From assembly GCF_014636495.1 (NCBI RefSeq), contig NZ_BMEM01000002.1:248001-312000 (forward strand): DNA of 64,000 bases. The letters are read 5' to 3'. This DNA is from Ornithinimicrobium tianjinense. GTDB lineage: Bacteria; Actinomycetota; Actinomycetes; Actinomycetales; Dermatophilaceae. Shown one piece after another: positions 8,721-12,010 of this stretch (position 1 is the first letter of the stretch; each line of letters begins with the position of its first letter). The notes under the pieces were generated by a model. The model made no database searches and had not been told where the DNA came from. It saw only the letters and a list, made by a program, of their open reading frames with translations. A program made the translations under genes and the position numbers.

Positions 8721-9614
8721 TCACCACTCCCAGCGGATGCCGCAGGTGCCCGGCCCGAAGTCGCGGAGCATCAGGTGGGCCAGCCCGCCCTGGAGCCTCA
8801 GCGGCCACCACTCCTCGACCCCGTCCACCACCGTGTAGGCGACGCACGAGCTGGGGACGTCGGCCGGGTGGAAGTGCACCTCGAGCACGAGCTCGCGCAG
8901 GCGCTGCGGGAGCCCGCGCTCCAGGTCCGTCCAGGGCTCGCCGTTGGCGACGACGTCCACCTCGTACTCCGTGAGGGCCGTGTCGCCCCGGTCGAGCGGC
9001 CGGGGCAGCACCAGCTCGGCCACCGCGAGGCCCAGGTCGGCCCGTTCGCGGTGGGCCCCGATCACGCAACCCTGGACAGGAGTGATGCGGGGCGGTGTGT
9101 CCGGCGCCGGGACGAGCATGTGCACCACCGGCCAGGAGCGGGCGTCCGGGGACTCCGCCCGGTGCACCTGCCGGACACGCTGGACGCGCGTCTGCCGGTC
9201 CTCGTGCAGGTGGTAGATGTCGTGCAGCGAGAGCCTGGTCAGTGCCGCCTCGTCGACGCCCAGCTCTCCCAGCAGCGACTTGACGACGTCACCGCTCGGC
9301 ATCAGGCTGCTGCGCTCGACCGTGGGTGGGCTGAGGCGACCGCGCGGGCGCGGGGGCGGGAGCAGACCTCGCAGCTCGCCGTCGTCCAGCTCGAGGATGT
9401 CCTCCAGCACGGCCAGGGCCCGGAGAGAGTCAGCACGCTCCGGCCGGCTGCGCCCCGACTGCCAGTAGCTCAGCGTCGCGACGCTCACCGAGGCCCCTCG
9501 CGCCTGCAGGCGCTCCCGCAGCCGCTCGAGCCCGAGGCCCCGGCGCTGCACGGCAGCGCGGAGGACGTGGGCGAACTCGCGTTCGCCCACGTCCTCGCGA
9601 GAGGCATGGCTCAT
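8721..9614 (-). CDS. XRE-type helix-turn-helix transcriptional regulator
   Basis: A protein of 297 residues. An N-terminal Cro/C1-like helix-turn-helix is visible at about 13-60 (LRERLQARGASVSVATLSYW followed by QSGRSRPERADS). The rest (about 80-297) has no domain I recognise. It contains SLHDIYHLHEDRQTRVQRVR and a C-terminal beta-rich region ending GTCGIRWEW, which may bind a ligand. TAAGAT lies 9 nt before the ATG, so the mRNA is probably leaderless. A perfect 16-bp hairpin sits inside the first codons (9561-9596, separate entry) and may be regulatory. It is transcribed in the same direction as the upstream yqgE. Confidence 0.75.
   Translation of the reverse strand: MSHASREDVGEREFAHVLRAAVQRRGLGLERLRERLQARGASVSVATLSYWQSGRSRPERADSLRALAVLEDILELDDGELRGLLPPPRPRGRLSPPTVERSSLMPSGDVVKSLLGELGVDEAALTRLSLHDIYHLHEDRQTRVQRVRQVHRAESPDARSWPVVHMLVPAPDTPPRITPVQGCVIGAHRERADLGLAVAELVLPRPLDRGDTALTEYEVDVVANGEPWTDLERGLPQRLRELVLEVHFHPADVPSSCVAYTVVDGVEEWWPLRLQGGLAHLMLRDFGPGTCGIRWEW
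9561..9596 (-). other. Perfect 16-bp inverted repeat inside 5' end of the XRE gene
   Basis: GAGGACGTGGGCGAAC (9561-9576) and GTTCGCCCACGTCCTC (9581-9596) pair perfectly around TCGC. It lies about 19-54 nt into the coding sequence, encoding residues DVGEREFAHVL. It could be an operator for autoregulation or an RNA structure limiting translation of a leaderless mRNA. Confidence 0.55.
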
Positions 9615-9645
9615 AGGCCGTGCATCTTAGGCCGCTGGTTCCTCG

Positions 9646-11556
9646 TCAGTTGAGCGACACGTCGTCGACGAGGAAGGAGGTCTGGTATGACGTGTCCTCC
9701 TGCGCGTCGAAGGTCAGCCGCACCTGCTGGCCGGCGTAGCCCGACAGGTCGAAGCTCTTCAGGACGTAGCCCGAGGTCTCGTTCACGTTGGAGTACGTGG
9801 CCAGGGTCCTCAGGAGCGACCCGCTGGTGGAGTGGAGCTGGACCCGCATGGTGTCGTAGGCGGTGGTGGTGGTCGTCTCGGCGGAGTCCACCCGCAGGTA
9901 GAAGCTCAGCGTCCCGCCCGAGGGCACGGTGACGGTCTGGGAGATGTCCTCCTGGGTGGTCGTGCCGTAGCCGAGGAGCCAGGCCTTGTAGGACCCGGTG
10001 CGCGCGGGGTAGCTCTCGGTGTTGATCGTCCATGTGTCGCCGCTCCACCCGGTCGCGCCGGACTCGAAGCCACCGTTGACGATGCCGCCGGGCGGGGGCG
10101 GCGGGGTGGTGCCGCCGAGTATGCCGTTGATCGTCGCCGTGGCGTCCACGATCCCGGCGCCGCAGCCGCCGCTGCAGCTGCCCGGCAGAGGTCGTGAGTA
10201 GTCCTTGAGAGCGGTCTCGACGGCCGACGGGGTCATCGACTTCTCACCCAGCATGAGCGCGACCAGACCGGCCACGTGCGGGGTGGCCATGCTCGTGCCC
10301 TGGTAGTAGGCGTAGCTGGACGAGGCGGGGTAGGTCGTGCCCGTGTTGAGGGTGGACAGGACGCCGTTGGCCTGGTTGACGTCTGTCTCGCCGCCGGGCG
10401 CGGAGATGTCGAGGACGGTGCCGTAGTTGGAGTAGTAGGCCCGGTTGCCCTGACGGTCCGTCGAGCCGACCGTGATCACGTTGGAGCAGTTGGCCGGCTG
10501 GACGTTGCCGGCGTTCTGGTTGTCGTTGCCGGCCGCCACGACGACGGGGACTCCGCGCTGGACAGCTCCGTTGATGGCCGACTGGTAGGTGGACGCGCAG
10601 TAGCCACCACCACCGAGGCTCATGTTGATGACGTCGGCCGGGGAGGCGTTGCTCGGCAGGCCGGACACGTAGCCGCCCGAGGCCCAGGTGATGCCGTCGG
10701 CGATGTCGGCGAGCGTGCCTCCGCAGCGACCGAGGACGCGGACCGGCGAGATCTTGGCCTTGGGGGCCACACCGGCCACGCCGGTGCCGTTGCTCGAGAC
10801 CGCGGCGACGGTGCCGGCGACATGGGTGCCGTGCCACGAGGAGTTGGAGGTGTACTGGGGGTAGCCGTTGCCGCACTCCCCCGCCGCCATCCAGTCGCCC
10901 TGGTCCGCCGGGTTGCTGTCCCGGCCGTTGCCGTCGCGGGCGGACCAGGAGTCGGAGATCATGTCGTAGCCGGAGACGACGTTGGCGTTGAGGTCGGGGT
11001 GGGAGGTGATGCCGGTGTCCAGGACCGCCACCACCGTGCCCAGGCCGTCAGCCCGGTCCCACGCGGACGGCAGCCGCAGGCTCCCTGTGTTCTCGAAGTA
11101 GTGCCACTGGTCGGAGTAGGCGGGGTCGTTGGGCGTGGCGGTGGGGTACATGCGCAGGTTTGGCTCGGCATACTCCACGTCCTGGCGGGAGGAGAGGGAG
11201 CGCAGCAGCCCCTCGAGCCGGGCGCCGGAGAGCGTCTCGTCGACGGAGACGAGCCGTGCTCCGGTGCCCAGGGTGCGCACCTCCCGCAGCTCGACGCCCT
11301 GGGCGACGGCGGCTGCGTCGAGCGCGGCGCTGCGCTTGGCGGCCGTGCTCGCTGAGCCGGGGGCGAAGGCGACGATGATCTCGTCGTAGCCCTGCGCGGA
11401 GGCCTGGGCGGCGGTCGGCGGGGTGGGCGCCGTCGTGAGGGCTGGCGGCGGCGCGACCGTCGGGGCCGCCGCCGCCGGAACGGCGGCCAGGGCGGCTGCC
11501 GGCAGGATCAGACCCGCTGCGGTGAGCAGCGCGGCCAGGGGGCGAGGATGCGTCAT
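9646..11556 (-). CDS. Secreted S8 (subtilisin-like) serine protease with C-terminal accessory domain
   Basis: A protein of 636 residues. A signal peptide at 1-31 ends in an Ala-rich stretch (LAAVPAAAAP). An inhibitor I9-like propeptide spans about 55-137 (YDEIIVAFAPG to VEYAEPNLRMYP). The catalytic domain, about 145-475, has the complete triad: Asp180 (VVAVLDTGI), His242 (WHGTHVAGTV) and Ser422 (GTSMATPHVAG), plus the oxyanion Asn of VAAGNDNQNAG. A Pro/Gly linker (TTPPPPPGG) leads to a C-terminal beta-sandwich of about 140 residues beginning IVNGGFESGATGW and ending in VDDVSLN. Such modules in secreted enzymes often bind substrate or cell wall. AGGA lies about 7 nt before the start. A palindromic site lies 68 bp upstream. 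Confidence 0.95.
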   Translation of the reverse strand: MTHPRPLAALLTAAGLILPAAALAAVPAAAAPTVAPPPALTTAPTPPTAAQASAQGYDEIIVAFAPGSASTAAKRSAALDAAAVAQGVELREVRTLGTGARLVSVDETLSGARLEGLLRSLSSRQDVEYAEPNLRMYPTATPNDPAYSDQWHYFENTGSLRLPSAWDRADGLGTVVAVLDTGITSHPDLNANVVSGYDMISDSWSARDGNGRDSNPADQGDWMAAGECGNGYPQYTSNSSWHGTHVAGTVAAVSSNGTGVAGVAPKAKISPVRVLGRCGGTLADIADGITWASGGYVSGLPSNASPADVINMSLGGGGYCASTYQSAINGAVQRGVPVVVAAGNDNQNAGNVQPANCSNVITVGSTDRQGNRAYYSNYGTVLDISAPGGETDVNQANGVLSTLNTGTTYPASSSYAYYQGTSMATPHVAGLVALMLGEKSMTPSAVETALKDYSRPLPGSCSGGCGAGIVDATATINGILGGTTPPPPPGGIVNGGFESGATGWSGDTWTINTESYPARTGSYKAWLLGYGTTTQEDISQTVTVPSGGTLSFYLRVDSAETTTTTAYDTMRVQLHSTSGSLLRTLATYSNVNETSGYVLKSFDLSGYAGQQVRLTFDAQEDTSYQTSFLVDDVSLN

Positions 11557-11623
11557 TGCTGGTCCTAGCGTGTGAAGGGGAAACCCGTGGGACGCGGGCT
11601 ACGCGGTGAGCGTGGTCGAGAGT

Positions 11624-11640
11624 GTTCACGCGACGTGAAC
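11624..11640. promoter_or_regulatory. Palindromic putative operator upstream of subtilase
   Basis: GTTCACG-CGA-CGTGAAC is a perfect 7-bp inverted repeat with a 3-bp centre, 68 bp upstream of the protease start. It has the size of a dimeric-repressor site. The regulator is not identified. Confidence 0.4.
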
Positions 11641-11666
11641 CCCCCGTCCACCCTTAACAGTTGACG

Positions 11667-11945
11667 CTACGGACGGTGCCCGTCCTCGCGGGGCCACCGA
11701 GCCACGACCACCCCCAGCACGACCCCAGCGAGGTCGGCGACCGTGTCCCACGGGTCGGCCTGGCGCAGCGGCGACACCCACCCCTGGAGCGGTTCGCTCA
11801 CGAGCGCGTGCACCACGAGCAGGGTGACGACCCATCGTGCCCCGAGGAGCCACGCCAGCGCCGAGGGCAGGGCGAAGAGCAGCAGGTGCGCCACCTTGTC
11901 CAGCCCCGGGACACCGCCCGGACCCGGGACCGAGGGCGCGTACAC
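11667..11945 (-). CDS. VanZ-like membrane protein
   Basis: A small protein of 92 residues with the VanZ-type pattern VPGLDKVAHLLLFALPSALA, then HALVSEPLQGWVSPLRQADP and WDTVADLAGVVLGVVVARW. Start GTG 11945 is preceded by AGGGG about 8 nt upstream. The same frame stays open upstream through a Leu-rich stretch (LLLGRLLLALLLALQGYA) that looks like the first membrane helix of longer VanZ-like proteins. No ATG, GTG or TTG is found there, so either the protein lost that helix or a non-standard start is used. It directly follows the malic enzyme gene on the same strand. Function of these short forms is unknown. Confidence 0.7.
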   Translation of the reverse strand: MYAPSVPGPGGVPGLDKVAHLLLFALPSALAWLLGARWVVTLLVVHALVSEPLQGWVSPLRQADPWDTVADLAGVVLGVVVARWPREDGHRP

Positions 11946-12010
11946 GGCATACCCCTGGAGCGCCAGCAGCAGCGCCAGGAGGAGACGGCCGAGCAGGAGC
12001 TGGCGGGGGC

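Follow-up and report, generated by a model that had tools for sequence, protein, structure and literature searches.

The locus and its hairpin

Within the 64,000-nucleotide stretch of DNA analysed here (the window), a gene for an HTH (XRE-like) regulator follows one for an S8 (subtilisin-type) serine protease on the minus strand, with 31 nt between the end of the protease gene (9646) and the regulator's ATG (9614). Residues 13-80 of the regulator match the Pfam family HTH_31, below the family cut-off. The start codons in this analysis were set by a rough codon-based gene caller, which called the regulator's start at a GTG (9590).

Table 1. Features discussed in the text. Positions are those of the window, except for tmk.
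Feature	Position	Strand	Remarks
HTH (XRE-like) regulator gene	8721..9614	-	297 aa; ATG at 9614
S8 (subtilisin-type) serine protease gene	9646..11556	-	636 aa; Pfam PF00082; upstream of the HTH gene
Candidate -10 box, TAAGAT	9624..9629	-	Ends 9 nt before the ATG at 9614
Perfect hairpin, 16 bp, 4-nt loop	9561..9596	-	In the transcript: 5' arm 9596-9581, loop 9580-9577, 3' arm 9576-9561
Rare Glu codon GAA (codon 11)	9582..9584	-	Needed for a perfect stem; accounts for 2.5% of Glu codons in the genome sample
Second short hairpin, 7 bp, 3-nt loop	9543..9559	-	One nt past the first hairpin
tmk hairpin	C1:151881-151925 (= L140:11881-11925)		First codons of tmk

A preliminary description of this DNA had reported a perfect 16-bp hairpin 19-54 nt into the regulator gene, and the sequence bears this out. 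On the coding strand (9596-9561) the hairpin reads GAGGACGTGGGCGAAC-GCGA-GTTCGCCCACGTCCTC, covers codons 7-18 and encodes the peptide EDVGEREFAHVL. Alignment within the HTH family begins with the residues of its 3' arm (F14 onward); its 5' arm encodes a mostly unaligned tail. The minimum free energy computed for the first 74 nt of RNA is -48.3 kcal/mol (z -6.11), with 0 of 200 shuffles equally low. The tail after the 16-bp stem is CGCGCTGC, which lacks a U-tract, so the U-rich tail of a canonical intrinsic terminator is absent directly after the stem. A terminator scan of 9000-12000 returned a single site, in another place and on the opposite strand, and the covariance models of Rfam 15 gave 0 matches up to E = 1 within 9000-10200.

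The regulator gene had also been credited with a likely leaderless promoter. A candidate -10 box does lie upstream, but its spacing falls outside the peak of this genome: among 1406 called genes, 211 TANNNT sites end at a distance of 6-8 nt from the start, and 4 at a distance of 9. The signature is very sharp: every other spacing between 0 and 29 nt has only 0-5 TANNNT sites. With its spacing of 9 just beyond that peak, the regulator gene falls outside a definition of leaderless genes by a -10 box at 6-8 nt, and its mRNA more probably has a leader of 1-3 nt than no leader. From the sequence, the promoter is predicted to be near-leaderless at best.

The regulator has only distant relatives within reach of our searches. 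Among 186 genomes of the family, its best full-length homologue has 43% identity and its best partial match 52% across 89 residues; plasmid records gave five matches at 28-37% identity, and peptide-pattern scans of the sets genome_contigs and viral_contigs found no close relative. The protease has matches in 21 of 31 genomes of the genus, the best at 53% over residues 236-635. An orthologue search with nine neighbour and sister proteins in 400-kb samples of two relatives gave one weak ABC permease match only. Matches to the regulator were listed at 110 places, and the subset of loci scanned for a stem held 36 distinct homologues that cover the N-terminus. In 0 of these 36 does a perfect stem exceed 7 bp (loops of 3-12 nt, -60 to +75), in a comparison too distant to decide the matter and with the start estimated by counting back from where the alignment begins.

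Neighbouring genes for an HTH-family regulator and an S8 protease recur elsewhere. The order HTH then protease, on one strand, is found in 6 of 20 relative loci (L119, L121, L123, L124, L126 and L127) and also in a paralogue in the same genome (contig C3, 339253-341897). The pair described here (8721-11556) has the reverse order, protease before HTH, and its S8 protease is less similar. A functional partnership between such regulators and proteases is possible.

Long stems in this genome

How surprising is a stem of this length? Under within-gene synonymous codon shuffling of 691 called genes (708 kb, 60 replicates, loops of 3-20 nt), perfect stems of at least 16 bp arise at a mean of 0.15 per 708 kb, with a maximum of 1 in any of the 60 replicates. 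This scales to about 0.012 per 64-kb window and about 0.6 per 3.3-Mb genome. The stem length, which the preliminary description had called unlikely by chance, is therefore only moderately surprising on its own and no proof of function. Given the encoded peptide and the codon usage of the genome, the probability that 16 of 16 positions pair is about 0.0007 (12.4 pairs expected).

Contigs C2 and C3 of the same genome (797 kb) were searched for perfect stems with a loop of 3-20 nt. Those of at least 16 bp occupy 16 places, 15 of them intergenic, and the hairpin in the regulator gene is the sole in-gene one. Long intergenic stems in this genome lie mostly behind genes: 34 of the 37 of at least 13 bp sit 6-64 nt past a stop codon, against a control of 1500 random intergenic positions with 33% within 150 nt of a stop. 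A sample of 1.6 Mb contains 64 intergenic hairpins at most 70 nt from a stop, half of them (32) in convergent and half (32) in tandem gaps, and 56 of the 64 have a U-less tail (fewer than 4 T in 8 nt), as has the hairpin studied here. The latter begins 49 nt past the stop codon of the protease gene and resembles the stop-proximal intergenic class in length, loop and tail; it differs in lying wholly inside the next gene.

Two perfect hairpins on contig C1 (20 bp at 720883-720927 and 16 bp at 535985-536020) lie behind a stop and overlap the point where the following gene was called to begin, a call that may be wrong in either case. Two others, C3:260837-260892 and C3:65226-65261, have a common arm, GCAAGGATTCGTTGGTC, as if they were a repeated element, and the 25-bp hairpin of this pair does not adjoin a stop codon.

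We then counted hairpins at the starts of close tandem genes, in a zone made up of same-strand pairs with a gap of at most 120 nt, the stem lying wholly in the downstream gene and starting at most 140 nt past the upstream stop. This definition was picked post hoc, after examples had been seen, and then fixed for a held-out 400 kb; the counts rest on the gene starts of this analysis, some of which are possibly wrong. In the first 1.2 Mb (584 pairs) the zone holds 6 stems of at least 13 bp against 0.39 by synonymous shuffle, and 0 of 300 replicates are as high. In the held-out 400 kb (205 pairs) there is 1 such stem against 0.067 (20 of 300 shuffles as high), which at the stated threshold of at least 13 bp agrees weakly with the excess and is not significant alone. 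At 12 bp or more the held-out count is 2 against 0.15 (1 of 300 shuffles as high), and a further 15-bp in-gene stem there starts 147 nt past the stop, just beyond the zone. For all 1.6 Mb, 7 stems of at least 13 bp stand against 0.67 in 24 shuffles (the 300-shuffle runs sum to 0.46), an excess of about tenfold. Judging by their protein sequences, we take the other zone members to be tmk, tsaD and genes for amylosucrase-like, TadE-like, sortase-like and ABC permease proteins.

The same 1.6 Mb show little of this elsewhere in genes. Gene bodies hold 6 stems of at least 13 bp (4.17 by shuffle) and, without excess, 11 of at least 12 bp (11.25 by shuffle). Gene ends show a small excess at 12 bp or more (4 versus 1.67, equal to the highest of 24 shuffles), with 1 versus 0.71 at 13 bp or more and 1 versus 0.12 at 14 bp or more. 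The test in relatives does not extend the pattern at tandem starts beyond this genome: 400-kb samples of two relatives in the same genus (186 and 189 tandem pairs) hold 0 zone hairpins, where shuffling predicts 0.12 and 0.18 and the rate of this genome would give about 2 in each.

These counts bear on the simplest rival reading, in which GC-rich codon usage gave a long stem without function. Coincidence is in keeping with the expected number of such stems per genome, with a scan that selects extremes, and with the empty counts in the 36 distant homologues and the two relative samples, yet it leaves unexplained a position behind a same-strand stop that is rare (0.03 stems of at least 16 bp are expected in the zone over 1.2 Mb, with one or more in 9 of 300 shuffles), the tandem-start excess and the use of so rare a codon within the stem. 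We consider it unlikely, though by no means negligible.

A sister hairpin in tmk

The tmk hairpin, which likewise occupies first codons, could be followed across relatives. It starts 10-12 nt into the gene, and in the genome studied here a -10 box, TAGGCT, lies 6 nt before the start. The comparison took the best 80 of 275 loci from genome_contigs, of which 71 were scanned and 9 lacked the anchoring motif; perfect stems of at least 8 bp occur in 13 of the 71 and of at least 10 bp in 5, and that of at least 10 bp in locus L249 sits elsewhere. A near clade of nine sequences was chosen (our own, L213-L219 and L224), with L220-L223 and all further ones excluded; among the excluded loci that were folded, the stem is not formed in L221, L223, L225, L226, L229, L231, L232, L248 and L249.

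In the nine sequences 85.6% of cells are paired, against at most 53.0% when the structure is slid, figures that are favoured by deriving the structure from one of the nine and that include mismatches in some members. Five of the 15 pairs have changed on both sides, a number reached by 5 of 500 shuffles, and further pair types are not above shuffles (268 of 500). The tmk hairpin is thus kept across the near clade of Serinicoccus and Ornithinimicrobium with compensatory changes. In this clade the upstream gene differs and the distance to the upstream stop ranges over about 60-130 nt (from open frames) while the stem persists, so the hairpin may serve tmk itself. The comparison suggests that selection can maintain long first-codon stems in these bacteria, and is no proof for the regulator gene.

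Could the hairpin in the regulator gene likewise be an element of its own mRNA, attenuating or tuning translation of a near-leaderless message, with the protease irrelevant? The tmk hairpin, behind a well-spaced -10 box and kept despite differing upstream genes, would argue for this. The distribution of such hairpins over gene starts does not: in 1.6 Mb there are 0 at 426 divergent and 188 far-tandem starts, where about 3.8 and 1.7 would be found at the tandem rate (zone lengths differ slightly), and the -10 box of the regulator gene has a spacing of 9. We find this reading doubtful. The interpretation that the preliminary description had offered is supported in part: a role at the level of mRNA is plausible, of a kind that looks terminator-like rather than switch-like.

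A terminator inside the next gene?

Two further origins can be weighed against the same data. Template switching during replication may have copied one arm into the other, which would account for a stem made perfect by the rare GAA when the common GAG would still have allowed a G-U pair in RNA, and for a 3' arm in aligned family residues facing a 5' arm in unaligned sequence; such a process should, however, act throughout genes, and gene bodies show no excess of stems of at least 12 bp, so that we hold it to be improbable. Least probable is a DNA operator to which the HTH protein itself binds, the other role once suggested for this dyad: it lies near the start of a gene for a DNA-binding protein, but inside the gene and not overlapping the promoter, its 24-nt palindrome core occurs a single time in the genome at up to 3 mismatches, a shorter core has 3 matches in the window against 1.25 expected by chance, and an HTH half-site needs far less than 16-bp arms. 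With the core unique in the genome, nothing points to a regulon or a dispersed repeat either.

Here, we propose that the hairpin is a U-less terminator of the S8 protease transcript, set inside the following gene, an explanation to which we give slightly better than even chances. What the data show is the stem, where it lies, the genome-wide set of hairpins behind stop codons and the excess at close tandem starts in this genome; the sister hairpin in tmk, kept with compensatory changes, adds to the case. It has the features of a U-less intrinsic terminator, namely a long, GC-rich and perfect stem, a small loop, a stop codon nearby upstream and no U-tract, and would belong to the long, GC-rich, mostly U-less terminator-like class that this genome carries behind stop codons. 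A gap of only 31 nt between the two genes would place the protease's hairpin within the first codons of the regulator gene. As RNA polymerase leaves the protease gene, the RNA between the protease stop and the regulator start would be free of ribosomes, and because no ribosome covers it there, the stem could fold and the read-through transcript end or pause; help from a factor is probable, because no U-tract follows. Transcripts of the regulator from its separate, near-leaderless promoter may be attenuated too, or may be let past when a ribosome loads at once. By the logic of a terminator within a gene start, one would guess that the regulator's own transcripts are attenuated unless leaderless loading is faster. 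Seen in its context, the hairpin goes beyond chance, and it is probably an element of a known type that occupies an uncommon position.

Several observations weigh against this terminator reading. The samples from relatives hold no zone hairpins, the held-out count at 13 bp or more is not significant alone, and gene ends show a small excess as well; the persistence of the tmk stem behind varying upstream genes fits an element of the downstream gene equally. Moreover, an in-vitro study cited in PMC5335608 saw no termination by mycobacterial RNA polymerase without a U-tract.

PMC5335608 also describes U-less hairpins as fairly common in GC-rich mycobacteria, reports that one reduced reporter output in vivo in M. 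smegmatis, and presents TtsaD, downstream of tsaD in the alr-groEL1 operon of Mycobacterium tuberculosis, as an I-shaped (U-less) intrinsic terminator. Like TtsaD, the hairpin studied here is GC-rich and U-less and lies shortly behind a gene with further genes downstream; unlike it, the stem is entirely inside the coding sequence of the next gene, and its termination is only predicted. In Escherichia coli, an engineered tR2 terminator with a U-tract, placed on a plasmid 30 bp past a start codon, remained largely efficient; in the authors' explanation, a ribosome cannot yet have caught up with the polymerase at so early a point (PMC4824070). Our case shares with that construct a terminator-like hairpin within the first 100 bp of an open reading frame, and differs in being natural, U-less and actinobacterial. 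RNA sequencing in E. coli has also mapped transcript 3' ends inside ORFs and premature 3' ends in 5' regions, by mechanisms that include Rho and processing (PMC7815308); the end proposed here would likewise fall inside a coding region, as a prediction from sequence. Our literature search, over titles and abstract openings of the best-ranked papers and with most subscription papers outside its scope, found no report of a terminator hairpin that lies within the opening codons of a downstream gene.

In light of the terminator reading, might there be a whole class of translation-gated terminators? Perfect first-codon hairpins in close tandem genes would stop unwanted read-through from upstream, while the (near-)leaderless transcripts of the downstream gene would pass because a ribosome loads at once on their 5' end. 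Selection would then act on one set of bases in two roles, coding for protein and terminating transcription, with tmk and the HTH regulator as examples. This generalisation is speculative and, in our estimate, rather unlikely to hold. If the terminator reading is right, terminator finders and annotation limited to intergenic DNA would overlook terminators that the following gene encodes in its first codons. Such hairpins would offer a clean natural example of a single DNA segment carrying two codes, and would make it possible to test how GC-rich bacteria insulate leaderless genes from their neighbours.
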